A stretch of 64,000 nt of DNA from Caenorhabditis elegans (taxonomy: Eukaryota; Nematoda; Chromadorea; Rhabditida; Rhabditidae): NCBI RefSeq assembly GCF_000002985.6, contig NC_003284.9:3162001-3226000 (forward strand). The letters are read 5' to 3'. Within the stretch, counting starts at the first letter, position 1. Each line of letters opens with the position of its first letter. Position numbers and translations under genes: made by a program. Under the pieces are notes generated by a model. The model had not been told where the DNA came from, made no database searches, and worked only from the letters and a program-made list of their open reading frames with translations. This document shows, piece by piece, positions 40,625 through 47,749 of the stretch.

Positions 40625-41577
40625 TCAACTTGTTATTTTTATTTGCAATGTGTCACAGATGTGCGGTAATCTGTTGCGACTAGCAGTCGCTACAGGCTTG
40701 ATGACTCGCTCTTTCAATTTTTCATAACTCGGTTGACACGACATCAAAGGAGACCGACGCGGCTTGTCTTGTAACTTGAACAAACTATTTGAACTTTTTC
40801 TCCGTTTATTTAACAAAGCGGATGTGAAAAAATAGAATGACGATTTGAAGGAAAAATAAAAATTAATTTTATCAAATGGAATGCTGCTTTTGTATGAGTT
40901 TCTCCGCGGGAACATTTCGTCTTGAGGTATCGTTGGTGGGGGTGCAGTTCTAGTTCTCCGTCTGTTCAGAAAACTTGTAGGCCAACACCAACAGTAGAGT
41001 CCCAAGAATACTGAAATGTTATGAACTTTTTGCGATCAGAATTAAACGTTTTTTCAAAAGTATTTCTCAAAAACAAATAAAAAGTTATGTTTTCATTTCT
41101 CTGAATTAAAGCCCCTCGAGAACTGAAAAAAATATAGATGGATAAATGATATTTTATCAAAATGAGGACTCATAATATTACATAGTTGAAGAAAATACTA
41201 AACACAATTATACAGAAAACAAACAGAAAAATTATTTGAACAGGTTCAAAGTTTTTGGATTGCTAGGGAAAAAGGTAAAAATTTTTGTTAGATGACCCAA
41301 AACTTAAAAATTCGTGAATGGAGAAAAACTATTGTTCGATAATCGGCTAGATAAAATTCCAAAAAAAGATAAAGCACTGGTCAAGTGTGGATTTTTCTAG
41401 TCCATACAACAAAAAAAAAACTTACATGTGAATATAATAATACACGACAAACAGCTGATAACGAGAGTTCTATCATGAATGGGGAACATGAAACACGAAG
41501 GTTTGTAGGATCTCATGTACGGAAAAGTGCAGTAGTATTGGTAGTAGGGCGGGTCGCTTGGAAAAAAGTTGGGTAAC
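40625..41577 (-). pseudogene. Decayed partial copy of the cysteine-rich membrane protein gene
   Basis: Two minus-strand exons (41577-41426 and 41010-40625) match exons 2 and 3 of the gene at 45159-47749. Shared phrases are SDPPYYQY, LVISCLSCIIIFTC, GLYCWCWPTS, NRRRTRTAPPPT and DEMFPRRNSYKSSIPFD. Exon 2 is 7 bases shorter than its counterpart (152 against 159), which breaks the phase with the ancestral exon 1, and no exon 1 copy is present. Several extracellular cysteines are lost (CPGPS to FPS, YCC to YYC, SCCMF to SCFMF). The original stop (GAT TAA) has become GAT AAA, adding about 80 codons. Together these point to a partial tandem duplicate that no longer encodes the same protein. A fused new gene with another 5' exon is not excluded. 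Confidence 0.65.
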
Positions 41578-42737
41578 CTGCAAAAAAAAGGCATTTCTTG
41601 TAGTTCGCAAATTCGATTCGAACTTCGTATTTTCAACAGATTTATTCTAAACTGTAAATATATTTTTTGTTGATACCAAATTTGAATAGATTTTAGTTTG
41701 TTGTTAAGATGCGCTGATAAAATGAGACATAAAAAATGCTCAAAGGGCTCATCACAATTCTAAATGTTTCATAAGAATTACACAAGTAAATTATAAAAGT
41801 ATCTTTATAAGGTTTGGTTTTAGTGGTAATATTATAAATTTTTGAAGAATGATTTTTTTCCAATAAATGAATACATTCTCGTGTGTTGAATTTTAACCTT
41901 GCCTCTGAAGTGGTTACAGAAGAAGTGGTACCTGTACGCATTTCGAAAATCAGGATCCTTGACGATTTGTATCCAATCCTCTTGAAAAACTTCCTTTGAA
42001 CCGAGAATCTGTGTGAAAATCGATTTTTCAGATGAAAATTAGCTCTTTTGTCATTTTGACACGCCAAAACCTCTGATTTCCTACTCAACAAGTTTCGCGC
42101 CTTGCGATCTTGTTGACGCACTTTCGGTGCCTTGCGCACTCGGCGACGCGAATCCAAGAATTCTCAGCACTTCTCCCGCAAGATCGGGTGTAAGCCGGTC
42201 GACGCCGTAAGGCTCGCCGTTTTTTCCATTGTTTCTAGGTTACAAAAGGTTTTTATTGTTTTTAGTTAAGGTTTAAGGTTTAGTTGAGGATTATTTCCTT
42301 GTTTTCAGTCTGTGGTCTTGATTATTTCAAGATCTTTTGTCTCTCCTGGTTTAAAAATACTTTTTCTTGCTAATAAATCTCTTAGTAAGATATCAAAGGT
42401 CTTCTGTTACGTTTTCTCAGTTCTCTCGGTTTCAGGTTACAATTGATTAATTAATAAGGTCTTGATTTATCAATTCCTTACTCTTTCCTGTTGGTTCTGT
42501 TTTTCCTCTTCTCCAATCGTTCATTTCCTCTTTTTGTCCTGGGATTTCCAATTAACATTTTCTATGTTTTGGAAATGATCATTCTAACTTTGATGTAAAC
42601 CTTTGTTTAAAACGCTCACCATCACTTTACCCTGTAAACTTGTTCTTCCTTCACCAATATCAGCTGGCTGAGTTCAAAATACTTCAATCTTCCAATCTAA
42701 AATATCAAAACAATAAATAAATTGTTTTAGGTTTAAA
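41578..42737. other. Gap with the duplication edge and a GC-rich island
   Basis: Similarity to the other copy continues to about 41730 (matching about 46800). From 41930 to 42240 is a GC-rich island with a long minus-strand open frame (41693-42157) and a second overlapping frame; it may be a transposon fragment, but I cannot name it. From 42240 to 42730 is T-rich DNA containing an AATAAA (about 42370). It could be an LTR-like piece or simply the promoter of the next gene. Confidence 0.4.
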
Positions 42738-44195
42738 ATGAGCCAACCCTTGGGAGGGGACCCATTCTCCAATGGAGAGTTCAGGAGTTCAGGAGCCCGG
42801 ATCCATTTAGTGATAACAAGTTTATCACGTTTTCCTCTTGCATAATCATCTCTATTATTGGATTCTTTTCTCTTGTCATTGTTTCGAAAGCCGATGAACG
42901 AGCGACGTTGTAAGTGTTGTTTTAGTTCACATTTTACTAAGTCATTAACTTTTACTTCAAAAAACGAACGAGGTTTTTGAAGATTTTAATTTATTTTTTT
43001 GCAAGAAATCGATTTTCCGCTTTTTTTCTCTAATGATATCAAATATATTAAGGATAAAACAGTGTCTCCGCATTTTAATGCGATATGTATGTGAAACTCT
43101 TCATTATATTTGGTTCGTCGCGTTCGTTTGGCTCTATCTGTATGAGGAATGTAAGTAAACAAAACACCTAACAATAAGCAGCTAAAATAAATTTTTACAG
43201 TTGATTGGAAGCAAGAAGAAATTGTAGATTTTCACAAATACGTCGTTTCTCCCTTGTTCCTCGTTACCTTGTTACTGTCTTTTTTGTCACGAGTAAGTTA
43301 TTTTATTTATATTAAAAATTTAATACGTACATTAATTCAAATACTTCTTACAATTTACGGAAAAACTATTTTTAATTTCTCGTTCAAGCATCTTTAACAA
43401 TATAATTATTTTCAGCATTGCCACGTCTGAAATATACTTCTAGTGAACGAATGGTTCGCAAGGCTTACTGGACACTTTTCCTCATCCTTTATTTAATCAT
43501 GTAAACATATTGCCATTTTTTTGCGTTCAACTGGATGCTAAACTGTAACTCACTCTTCTTTCAACGCACCTAATATTTTAATTTCAGTGATTATTAATTT
43601 GACCGGATCTGTCGCATCATCTAGATTGACGTACATCATTTTTAAACCCACAATGAAAGTGGAGTTGTATAGGAAAAGCTTTTAAACCAAACGAATTTTC
43701 TAGAACTTGATATTAATCAGTAAATCACAAATTTATAAAATCATTTAAAACATTCCTGTTTCAGGGGCTTGCAAACGGATAAGTGGATTACGTTATCCTC
43801 GAATGCACGTTTCAATGCACTTATCAGACAAATCAGAGAGGCTCCGTCTGGTGACCATGTCTCATTTTTAAAAGAAGTAAGTTCACTGTTTCCAAATTGC
43901 CGTGTCCAACGACCTGATAATTCAGGATATAATAGAATATTTGGAGAGGAATGTGTCAGTCGGAAACATTTCTTTTGTCTCGTGTGATGGCGGACCACTC
44001 ATCAGAAACGACAACGATCAGCTCACCGACAGACACGGACTCGTTGCCGAAGCCAGGAACGCTGAATGGAACGTCCGGGTTGCGCTGAAATCTGTGAAGA
44101 CCGTCATGAGAGCTGACGGAAATTTGGATGGAGTGGAACTGGTGGCGAAGCTGGATTATGACTTGAAGAAAGTCCTCGACGGACTGAAAAAATAA
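42738..44195 (+). CDS. Multi-pass membrane protein gene with frame-breaking 8-bp duplication in exon 1
   Basis: An acceptor (TTGTTTTAG) ends at 42730, 7 bases before ATG AGC CAA, a typical trans-spliced start. Exon 1 reads MSQPLGGDPFSNGEFRS and then loses frame because AGTTCAGG occurs twice in tandem (42778-42793). The frame after the duplication continues SPDPFSDNKFITFSS into a membrane span (CIIISIIGFFSLVIV) and ends at a perfect donor (42908). Later exons carry further spans (ETLHYIWFVAFVWLYLYEE; YVVSPLFLVTLLLSFL; AYWTLFLILYLI). The last two exons (43765-43876, 43926-44195) join in phase as a soluble tail ending VLDGLKK, then TAA, with AATAAA at 44490. The junction after the third span also needs a non-obvious donor. 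Either this is a young pseudogene, or another start or splice is used. The protein family is not recognised. Confidence 0.5.
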
Positions 44196-45158
44196 GATAA
44201 AACGGCATGATATTCCATTGTTCGTTTAAATAACCACCACTGTCCGTACATGTTTCCCGTCTAAAAATACTCTCTCATCAAGAATTACTAATTTCATCTT
44301 GATTTTCCGAGTCATCAAAATACATCCCGCGTCCAAATTCCATATCATTGTCAAACACAAAAACGTGTCAGATTTTTATAAGTTAAATTATATACAACAC
44401 CCTTATTCCAATTATGTTTGTTGTCAAAATTTTAATCCCGCCCAAAACCAATCAAATTAGATCTCCAATTGTAAAAACTTTAAAGTTAAAATAAAGCCAT
44501 AAAAAACAAAAAAGTGTGTATGTGTTAATTTATTGTATGGTCAGGACAAAAATGTTTGAAAAAGAGAGGAAAAGGTTAAAAAGAGAATAATTTCAGGATC
44601 AGCATCCTGCCTATCCAGCGTAAAATTCAATCAATTTTGGGTTTATAATTTAATTTCAGAGGGGAGCCGCAGCCTATCCCCAAAATAGGCGGCGACTAGG
44701 CCATTTACGGGCCAAACATATCCACACAACCCGGATAACCTGTCTGGGAAAAATCGGTCGAACTAGACCAAAAATAAATCGCCAGTTAATTCGTTTATTT
44801 CGTGCAAACCAGATCTACAGGATCGCGGAATGGGGAGCACAGAGGGCAGACGCTACCCAAACTACAAGTTTAGACGAGGGAATTATAATATCCCAAGCTA
44901 AACGAAAACCATTTTCATTCTCTTGTTGTGCATTTATCAGTTCAAGTTCATTCAAAAAGGTAGCGAACCTTCCAAATTCGGGTCAAAAGAGGCAAAATTC
45001 ACTGAAATGATGCTCGCAAGAGCCAAAAAAATGCCCAAAACTCACGGTTTCACAACTTATAGAGTATTTCATGATAACTGATATTGCCCTAGAATTTGAG
45101 ATGGTTATTTAACAAAGCGGATGTAAAAAATAGACTTGAAAGAAAAATACAAATTAAT
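44196..45158. other. 3' UTR and repeat-like GC-rich block
   Basis: The + strand 3' UTR runs to the AATAAA at 44490-44495. About 44660-44900 is a GC-richer block (GGGGAGCCGCAGCCTATCCC, GGCCATTTACGGGCC) that looks like part of an interspersed element. Bases 45060-45110 repeat the internal sequence of the inverted-repeat element at 45428-46244 (ATTTCATGATAACTGATATTG), so this is a solo fragment. Confidence 0.45.
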
Positions 45159-47749
45159 TTAATCAAATGGAATGCTGCTTTTGTATGAGTTTCTCCGCGG
45201 GAACATTTCGTCTTGAGATATCGTTGGTGGTGGTGCAGTTCTAGTTCTCCGTCTGTTTAGTAAACTTGTAGGCCAACACCAACAGTAGAGTCCCAATAAT
45301 ACTGAAATAGTTTGAACTTTTTATTTAGTATTACTGGTTAGCAAGATCACTTCAACATTCAATCTTTTATCCGGTGATTATCATGACTGGTCTGTTATCA
45401 AATTTTTCGGTTGAATAAATATATATATACAGTCACGGTCATAAAGGTATGGAAAAACAGTTTTTCACTGGATAACTTTCTTCATTTAACTTAGTTTTAT
45501 CTCAAATTCCTAGGGCAATATCAATTATCATGAAATACAGTTATTTCATCAGTGGTTTTCAAAAATTTCAAAAAATAAATTTTTTTTGAAACTTTTTGAA
45601 AATTCGAAGAAATGAAAAAATCCATGAAGTTTGGAAAAAATTACGTATCTGAGCCAAAACGGAAAATTATATGTAGAAATAACATGAAATAGTGGAACAT
45701 GTCTTTGTGTACCAATTTTCAACAATATCAGGTTAATCACGACGTGTTATCTAGAACGGAGGCACCTGGAAAATAGATGTGCTTCATCTAAAAAACGCGT
45801 TGAGTTTGGCGATGCTCTGGCTCACACCTGGTCTCAAAATACTCAAAATTGCATGTTTTAAAATCTCCAGTATTAATTTTTTATTATTCAAGCTAAAATA
45901 CAGATTTATTTCCTCCAGTGCCAAAATCCATGACCGTCGCAGCCAGCATAGTGCATGAGAATAAGTGCCTTTCCGATCTTTGTAAAGCTGGAACTCGACC
46001 AGTGAATTTTTAAAATGATACTCAGATACGTAATTTTTTCCAAACTTCATAGATTTTTTCATTTTTTCGAATTTTCAAAAAGTTTCAAAAAAAATTTATT
46101 TTTTGAAATTTTCAAAAACCACTGATGAAATAACTGTATTTCATGATAATTGATATTGTCCTAGAATTTGAGATAAAACTAAGTTAAATGAAGAAAGTTA
46201 TCCATGAAAAACTGTTTTTCCATACCTTGATGGCCGTGACTGTATATATAGTAACTTTTGTCAAAAGTTAAGTGTGGATTTTTTCTAGGCAACACAATAA
46301 GTGCTGGCCAGTCTAAACATTATCTTAGTGAAAAATTTTTCACCCTTTGAATTAGAACAAAATTCCCTCTGAAATCAATGTTTTTTAATTCAAATTTTTT
46401 TCAAAACCAATTTAAACCCCTTACTCGTACATATTTTGCCAATGAAAACCAAATTATCTTATTGATCGAAGCGCAATTGTTTCAAACACTTACATGTGAA
46501 TATAATAATACACGACAAACAGCTGATAACGAGAACACCATCATGTATGGGGAACATGCAACACGAGGGTTTGTAAAATCCCAAGTACGGAAAAGTGCAG
46601 CAATATTGGTAGTAGGGCGGGTCGCTCGGACCTGGGCAAGATGCAGGGTAACCTGAAAAAAATTGCTTTAGTTGGCAATTTCAATTCGAACTTCCGCTTT
46701 TTCTTCCCACAAGCTTTAATCTAAACTGTAAACATAATTTTTTGTTGATACCAATTTCAAAATTTGTTTAGGTTTGTTATTGCAAAACGCTGGTAAAATG
46801 AGGAAATATATGTATACGACAGATAAAAATATGTGAAAAAGTCAAAACAGTGAATTGATTAATTATTGTGGTAGCATGGACGTTTTTTAAAAGCAATTTC
46901 TCCGCTGGAGCTACTCTTTTTTTAAACCAGTAATAATACTTATTTCTAATTTTGCATGTGGTGTCAGAATGTCCCATTTCGGTTTGATCTCCGAGATTTG
47001 CGGGAATTACGACGCATCAAGACACAGACCTTTCAATTGATTTTGCTTGGTTAAGATTTTGCTGACGCCACATTATTTGGAAAAAAATTCCCGCGTTTTT
47101 TGTAGATCAAACCGTGATAAGACAACCCGCCACCACGTGATTTTGTTTCTAAACTAATATGAGCCGAAAAATCTGCATTGCACAATTTTTAAATAGATCC
47201 AACAAAAATATAATTCCAAAAAATAAAATTGGGAAAACTCCTCCAAAAATAGGACTTTCCATTTAAAATAGAAGACAGTTGATACCTCAATAGGTACATT
47301 CCATGTCAGAGAATGTGCCGAAAAGCGTTCATTCTATTGACACTTTGTTCTTTAGAAATATTTGAAAAGGGTGAGGACATTAGAAACATGACTGGAAAGT
47401 TGATACATTCCCTTCAGGCAGATTTTTTTTTATTTTCAATGTTATGCCGTCAAAAAATTTTTTCACTGTGAATTTACATTTATTGACTCAAAAAAAAAAC
47501 ATTATTTTAATCACAAAAATGAAACTAACCATGTCCTCCTTCACACCAGTTGATATCCCGTTTCTGAAGAACGCGCATGAAATTGGAATCCATATCTTTG
47601 CCTAGGTGAAGAACGCAAAGAATAGATGCTAGGTGTAGCACAATAGGTAACCATGTGGGCAAAAAATTGAGAAGGGAGAGGAAAAGGAAAGGTGCGGTCG
47701 TTGTGCAAACAAGATATGAGGTCGAATGTCTTCGGCGGTAAACACCCAT
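45159..47749 (-). CDS. Small cysteine-rich single-pass membrane protein (Shisa-like layout)
   Basis: Three exons in phase on the minus strand: 47749-47530, 46652-46494 and 45301-45159, giving 173 residues. Exon 1 holds a hydrophobic signal or anchor (TAPFLFLSLLNFLPTWLP, then IVLHLASILCVL). Exon 2 gives a compact cysteine cluster (CPGPSDPPYYQYCCTFPYLG, then YKPSCCMFP) followed by a membrane span (LVISCLSCIIIFTC). Exon 3 gives GLYCWCWPTSLLNRRRTRTAPPPT and a short tail ending SSIPFD. An extracellular YCC...CC cluster, a span and a proline-rich cytoplasmic tail recall Shisa/CYSTM-type proteins, but I cannot assign it firmly. Intron 2 contains an 817-bp inverted-repeat element that the partial copy at 40625-41577 lacks. 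The first ATG of exon 1 is chosen; no strong acceptor decides it. Confidence 0.7.
45428..46244. mobile_element. 817-bp element with about 210-bp terminal inverted repeats
   Basis: The left end begins TACAGTCACGGTCATAAAGG and the right end, in reverse complement, TACAGTCACGGCCATCAAGG. The two arms stay complementary with few mismatches for about 200 bases (ATGGAAAAACAGTTTTTC..., ACTTTCTTCATTTAACTTAG...). Flanking TATATA suggests TA-target insertion, as in Tc/mariner-derived elements. No transposase frame. It sits in intron 2 of the cysteine-rich membrane protein gene. Confidence 0.85.
46970..47125. repeat. Palindromic interspersed repeat
   Basis: The left arm CGGTTTGATCTCCGAGATTTGCGGGAATT and the right arm AAATTCCCGCG...TAGATCAAACCG are inverted copies separated by about 75 bases. 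This AGATCAAACCG/CGGGAATT palindrome is of a kind common in C. elegans non-coding DNA. It is in intron 1 of the cysteine-rich membrane protein gene. Confidence 0.65.

Follow-up and report, generated by a model that had tools for sequence, protein, structure and literature searches.

An 8-bp tandem duplication and further frame conflicts in a candidate single-copy membrane protein gene of Caenorhabditis elegans

A candidate gene for a multi-pass membrane protein, read from an ATG at position 42738, raises the question of whether its broken frame is due to one very recent lesion, as a preliminary description had proposed, or whether the gene is in more general decay. The locus was analyzed within a window (the whole stretch of DNA under study) of 64,000 nucleotides on C. 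elegans contig 6 (NC_003284.9, 3,162,001-3,226,000), and positions are given in the coordinates of this window. Neighboring open frames were found to carry kinesin, nuclear-receptor zinc-finger, RasGEF and O-fucosyltransferase domains. The corresponding genes are presumably klp-4, fax-1, rgl-1 and pofut-1, where we take fax-1 to be F56E3.4 and rgl-1 to be F28B4.2. The candidate gene lies between fax-1 and rgl-1, on the opposite strand to them. The features at its 5' end are as follows.

42090 to 42487, plus strand: dispersed repeat upstream of the gene, identified by genome searches; its start may precede 42090, where the search began.
42738 to 42909, plus strand: candidate first exon (E1) with the ATG at 42738, a stop in the same frame at 42843 and another frame open to the donor, based on frames, codon use and splice scores.
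42777 to 42795, plus strand: 8-bp tandem duplication, two copies of GAGTTCAG followed by GAG, based on direct reading, pattern match and a tandem count.

The dispersed repeat ends near 42487, about 250 bp ahead of the ATG, and may have displaced promoter sequence. Its first part was found at 27 places in the genome and its second part at 24, its own site included. Two similar sequences flank the gene at 40842-41668 and 45133-46742 (190 nt at 94%, 147 nt at 90% and 46 nt at 76% identity). They appear to be copies of a small minus-strand gene that was duplicated in tandem; two open frames in the 40842-41668 copy had no Pfam match. Inside the second flanking copy, a long inverted repeat at 45422-46250, whose arms (149, 48 and 46 nt) are 94-96% complementary, resembles a palindromic mobile element.

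The duplication itself was confirmed by direct reading and pattern match: the 8-bp unit AGTTCAGG is present in two tandem copies at 42778-42793, which fall within a full overlapping repeat of 19 bp (42777-42795). This repeat pattern occurred at one site in the 64-kb window compared to 0.02 expected by shuffling with up to two mismatches, and the 16-mer of the repeat had one further occurrence in the genome, within unrelated sequence on contig 2. Exact, non-simple tandem duplications of period 8 numbered 12 in the window, and a control of 30 first-order Markov resamples gave a mean of 1.3 (range 0-7). Because 12 such duplications are present, the rarity of the repeat was dropped as evidence, and the 8-bp duplication is an ordinary type of sequence event in this window. 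As a separate observation, exact duplications of this period were about nine-fold more common in the whole window than in the resamples; tandem duplications of other periods were tallied without a control. Inspection by eye revealed no slippery heptamer for programmed -1 frameshifting at the repeat.

The reading frame of E1 was next compared on the two sides of the repeat. From the ATG at 42738, which stands behind a splice-like acceptor (TTGTTTTAG) ending at 42730, the frame runs for 35 codons and stops at a TAA (42843-42845), in agreement with the predicted stop within 40 codons. After the repeat, one frame was clearly the best by codon use (+3.1 compared to -6.8 and -12.8, 38 codons), and this frame is open to the donor, although the exon was found to end at 42909 (GT from 42910) and not at 42908. 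The proposed frame break thus stands in that the ATG frame is broken and a single clear frame follows the repeat, but the preference for the ATG frame ahead of the repeat is slight (+1.9 compared to +0.4 for the downstream frame and -0.9 for the third, 18 codons). The downstream frame is also open across the repeat, back to a stop ending at 42736, and from 42737 it is without an ATG. The two DPFS motifs that had been described are present, one on each side of the repeat, but each lies in a different frame, and they are written in different codons; by rough estimate, the chance of a DPFS on both sides, once per frame, is about one in a thousand. The stretch ahead of the repeat is GC-rich (0.55). 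That the repeat shifts the frame within one exon is the simplest reading of exon 1, on evidence that is thin at the 5' end.

Seven exon-like blocks, E1 to E7, were delimited. Those that follow E1, and the poly(A) signal, are listed here.

43053 to 43150, plus strand: E2, membrane-span exon for which an in-phase join to E1 requires a weak acceptor (ATTAAG), with an internal ATG at 43078, based on frames and splice scores.
43201 to 43292, plus strand: E3, membrane-span exon whose phase fits that of E2 but not that of E4, based on frames, splice scores and a tile control.
43416 to 43500, plus strand: E4, membrane-span exon with an open frame that is in phase with E2 and E6 and out of phase with E3 and E5, based on frames, splice scores and the gene finder.
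43588 to 43666, plus strand: E5, short exon in phase with E6 and out of phase with E4, with a very weak donor (GTATAG), based on frames, splice scores and a tile control.
43765 to 43876, plus strand: E6, in phase with E7, based on frames, splice scores and a protein search.
43926 to 44195, plus strand: E7, last exon of 89 codons and a TAA, based on frames and the gene finder.
44490 to 44495, plus strand: AATAAA poly(A) signal, read from the sequence.

From the part of E1 after the repeat through E7, each block has one best stop-free forward frame. The GC content of the blocks was 0.35-0.55, that of five of the six introns 0.19-0.33 and that of the last intron (49 nt) 0.43. An intact last exon followed by a poly(A) signal had been reported and was found again: E7 is open to its TAA at 44193-44195, with AATAAA at 44490, and E6 and E7 together form 126 intact codons. 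The joins from E2 to E3 and from E6 to E7 are in phase. E3 leaves phase 0 and E4 needs phase 1, and E4 leaves phase 2 and E5 needs phase 1. E1 can be joined to E2 in phase only via an AAG acceptor of low score (0.27), since the other choice, a CAG (-4.61), is out of phase, and E5 is in phase with E6 but through a very weak donor (-3.9). The E4 donor is weak (-0.42), and the coding score of E2 is poor (-0.14 per codon). Because of these further frame conflicts and weak splice sites, the claim that the duplication is the sole and very recent lesion does not follow.

How many defects lie beyond the repeat depends on E3 and E5: there are two more phase conflicts if both are exons and none if both are skipped, since dropping them restores phase (E2-E4-E6-E7). 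Open cassettes like E3 were detected in 4 of 4000 random intron-like sequences, in one of 353 AT-rich tiles of the reversed window and in one of 346 tiles of the window complement. For cassettes like E5, the counts in these three sets were 43, 5 and 3. Since equal cassettes are this rare, E3 and E5 are probably exons or former exons. The intron ahead of E3 is 50 nt long, a length common among the introns of the klp-4 model.

Gene models were generated by a small dynamic programming gene finder, for which the splice and codon tables were entered by hand. The best frameshift-free model started at 43078 and joined E2, E4, E6 and E7, all in phase, with a score of 35.9. With the cost of a frameshift set to 5, the highest score went to E1 with one shift at the repeat followed by E2-E4-E6-E7 (37.0 compared to 35.9). 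At costs of 8 and 12 E1 was dropped from the top model, and in a separate run at a cost of 6 the shifted E1 was joined directly to E6 (36.6). When all seven blocks were required without a frameshift, the score fell from 35.9 to 18.5, on a path that used upstream exons, an acceptor inside the repeat and weak sites; with the same requirement and a cost of 6, the score was 25.3 and shifts were placed in E3, early in E5 and in one upstream stretch. From the ATG at 42738, a frameshift-free path was found via an early donor at 42820 into E4 (33.4). A test of whether another start or splice site restores the frame, as had been proposed, gave several formal open paths, but each omits good exons or uses weak sites. 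For the control gene klp-4, the same finder gave a model of 18 introns that was free of frameshifts at every cost used. The controls rgl-1 and fax-1 showed no frameshift at a cost of 10 and one shift each at a cost of 6, close to the 3' end of the sequence supplied; this control is not like for like, as the candidate gene is also shift-free at a cost of 10, although only by omitting E1, E3 and E5.

The frameshift-free models suggest a gene that works without E3 and E5, starting at the ATG at 43078 or at another start, with E1 as a leader or dead exon and the duplication harmless to the protein. The in-phase model of 35.9 argues for such a gene, as does the path from 42738 through the early donor (33.4). 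We nevertheless consider it unlikely, as the exons that it omits both look like true exons, E3 with its 50-nt intron of common size, and E2, which it retains, scores -0.14 per codon. If E1 is kept instead and the duplication is the one lesion of an otherwise good E1-E2-E4-E6-E7 gene, N2 would carry a broken allele and other isolates a working form. Alleles of this kind, termed 'flatliners', are described for N2 chemoreceptor genes in the excerpted text of PMC2576165, and the corresponding model was on top at the lenient frameshift cost of 5. By contrast, E1 was lost at costs of 8 and 12 and joined straight to E6 at 6, and the weak E2 acceptor must be used and E3 and E5 skipped; we judge this single-lesion allele to be unlikely as well, and slightly more so.

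Two other accounts concern the repeat itself. GAGTTCAG may be a 3' splice site. Its two copies would then act as tandem acceptors, spaced by 8 nt and joined to an exon further upstream, and the 5' part of E1 would be intron. Both TTCAG/G sites score 2.76 compared to 1.7 for the proposed E1 acceptor, the forced models take one or the other of them, and no stop interrupts the downstream frame across the repeat. The stretch ahead of the repeat, however, has the high GC content noted above and starts with an ATG behind a splice-like acceptor, and the upstream exons of the forced models lie within or before the dispersed repeat, which leaves tandem acceptors improbable. A reference error in N2 as the source of the duplication seems more improbable still. 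The available part of PMC2978686 reports 2038 likely errors in an earlier N2 reference, including 14 small indels in annotated pseudogenes, but the error list there is of SNPs and 1-3-bp indels, with larger insertions (5-33 bp) placed in supplementary tables, and is thus not decisive for this site. Tandem copies of 8 bp that match exactly are, moreover, common in the window.

The explanation that we favor, at somewhat under an even chance, is that of a multi-lesion, single-copy C. elegans gene decaying toward loss in the N2 lineage. Its product would be a small protein with several membrane passes and, at the C terminus, a soluble part of about 126 residues. The duplication and the stop are present in the sequence; as a derived mutation, an 8-bp slip duplication in exon 1 would send the ATG frame into the stop after 35 codons. 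The phase conflicts between E3 and E4 and between E4 and E5 are likewise present; if they arose as indels, these two further conflicts on either side of E4 would keep good exons from one joint frame. Any transcript would carry an early stop ahead of the later exon junctions and, from known biology, would probably be removed by nonsense-mediated decay. The outcome would be a loss with several defects rather than one fresh lesion. The possible disabling changes are the E1 repeat, the two phase conflicts and the weak splice sites, and they do not fix the ancestral reading. Points against decay are the intact E6 and E7, the lesion-free model that starts at 43078 without E3 and E5, the frameshift-free path that can be drawn through all seven blocks, the poor coding score of E2, and the weak preference for the ATG frame ahead of the repeat, where the other frame is open too. 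Taken together, the locus resembles a gene in ordinary decay more than one broken by a single very recent event.

Genome searches with two DNA queries (42700-44500) and four protein pieces returned the locus itself as the only credible match; as expected of a unitary pseudogene, there was no other genome copy by these searches, which could miss divergent copies. Weaker matches were judged to be due to chance: on contig 5, a pair at 8.82 and 8.87 Mb free of internal stops (E 0.19; 26% over 61 residues) and one at 0.96 Mb with five stops (E 0.02), and on contig 4, one with three stops at 12.97 Mb (E 0.37). In a Pfam scan of four pieces, none scored above the curated cut-off, with 16.0 bits for 7tm_3 (cut-off 33.5), 11.8 for DUF373 (28.3) and 12.5 for PBP2 (27). 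E6-E7 gave one match in the PDB (E 1.7), and nothing in the 64-kb window matched Rfam. In the literature searched by sequence and clone names, no gene name and no paper on the locus were found.

In the excerpted text of PMC6534338, the strain fax-1(gm27) deletes rgl-1 and eight other genes and is listed among the rgl-1 mutants that can be grown indefinitely. Since the locus lies between fax-1 and rgl-1, both absent in fax-1(gm27), it would also be gone if the deletion is continuous; if so, it would be absent from a viable strain and dispensable for laboratory life. Tolerance of its absence is compatible with a dead gene and a dispensable gene alike. On the right, F28B4.3 is placed just outside the window, at X:3,226,501-3,236,408 including 1 kb on each side, in the part of PMC11075571 that was available, a placement consistent with the window lying on chromosome X.

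What the locus means depends on which account holds. A multi-lesion pseudogene would be one of many, of value mainly for gene annotation; the number of C. elegans pseudogenes is estimated at 1658, a figure quoted in the excerpt of PMC5765348. If wild isolates are intact, N2 would be without a gene unseen by laboratory work, and the locus would provide a date for the loss of a gene. It is unlikely, in our view, that a unitary loss has been caught in progress, in which a membrane protein outside the known families is still functional in some wild C. elegans but broken in the laboratory reference strain N2; if true, the function of such a protein would be invisible to N2-based genetics.

Among known systems, the closest comparison is with the N2 chemoreceptor genes, for which the excerpted text of PMC2576165 provides a yardstick: one defect suggests a strain allele, and several suggest a fixed pseudogene. 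The flatliner alleles described there are single-defect, nonfunctional N2 genes of the chemoreceptor families. The present locus is similar in that the N2 copy of a multi-pass membrane gene has an early frame break, which holds only if the E1 ATG is the true start, and it differs from them in having more than one apparent frame conflict and no Pfam family at cut-off. With what may be several separate defects at one locus, it would be similar to the multi-defect N2 pseudogenes presumed in the same excerpt to be fixed; unlike these, it has no N2 paralogue among the matches found, so that its loss would be unitary and not that of a spare family member. The early stop expected upstream of exon junctions is also similar to that of the expressed C. 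elegans pseudogenes cleared by nonsense-mediated decay, in the portion of PMC5765348 available; those cases are expressed, whereas the present one is known from its sequence.
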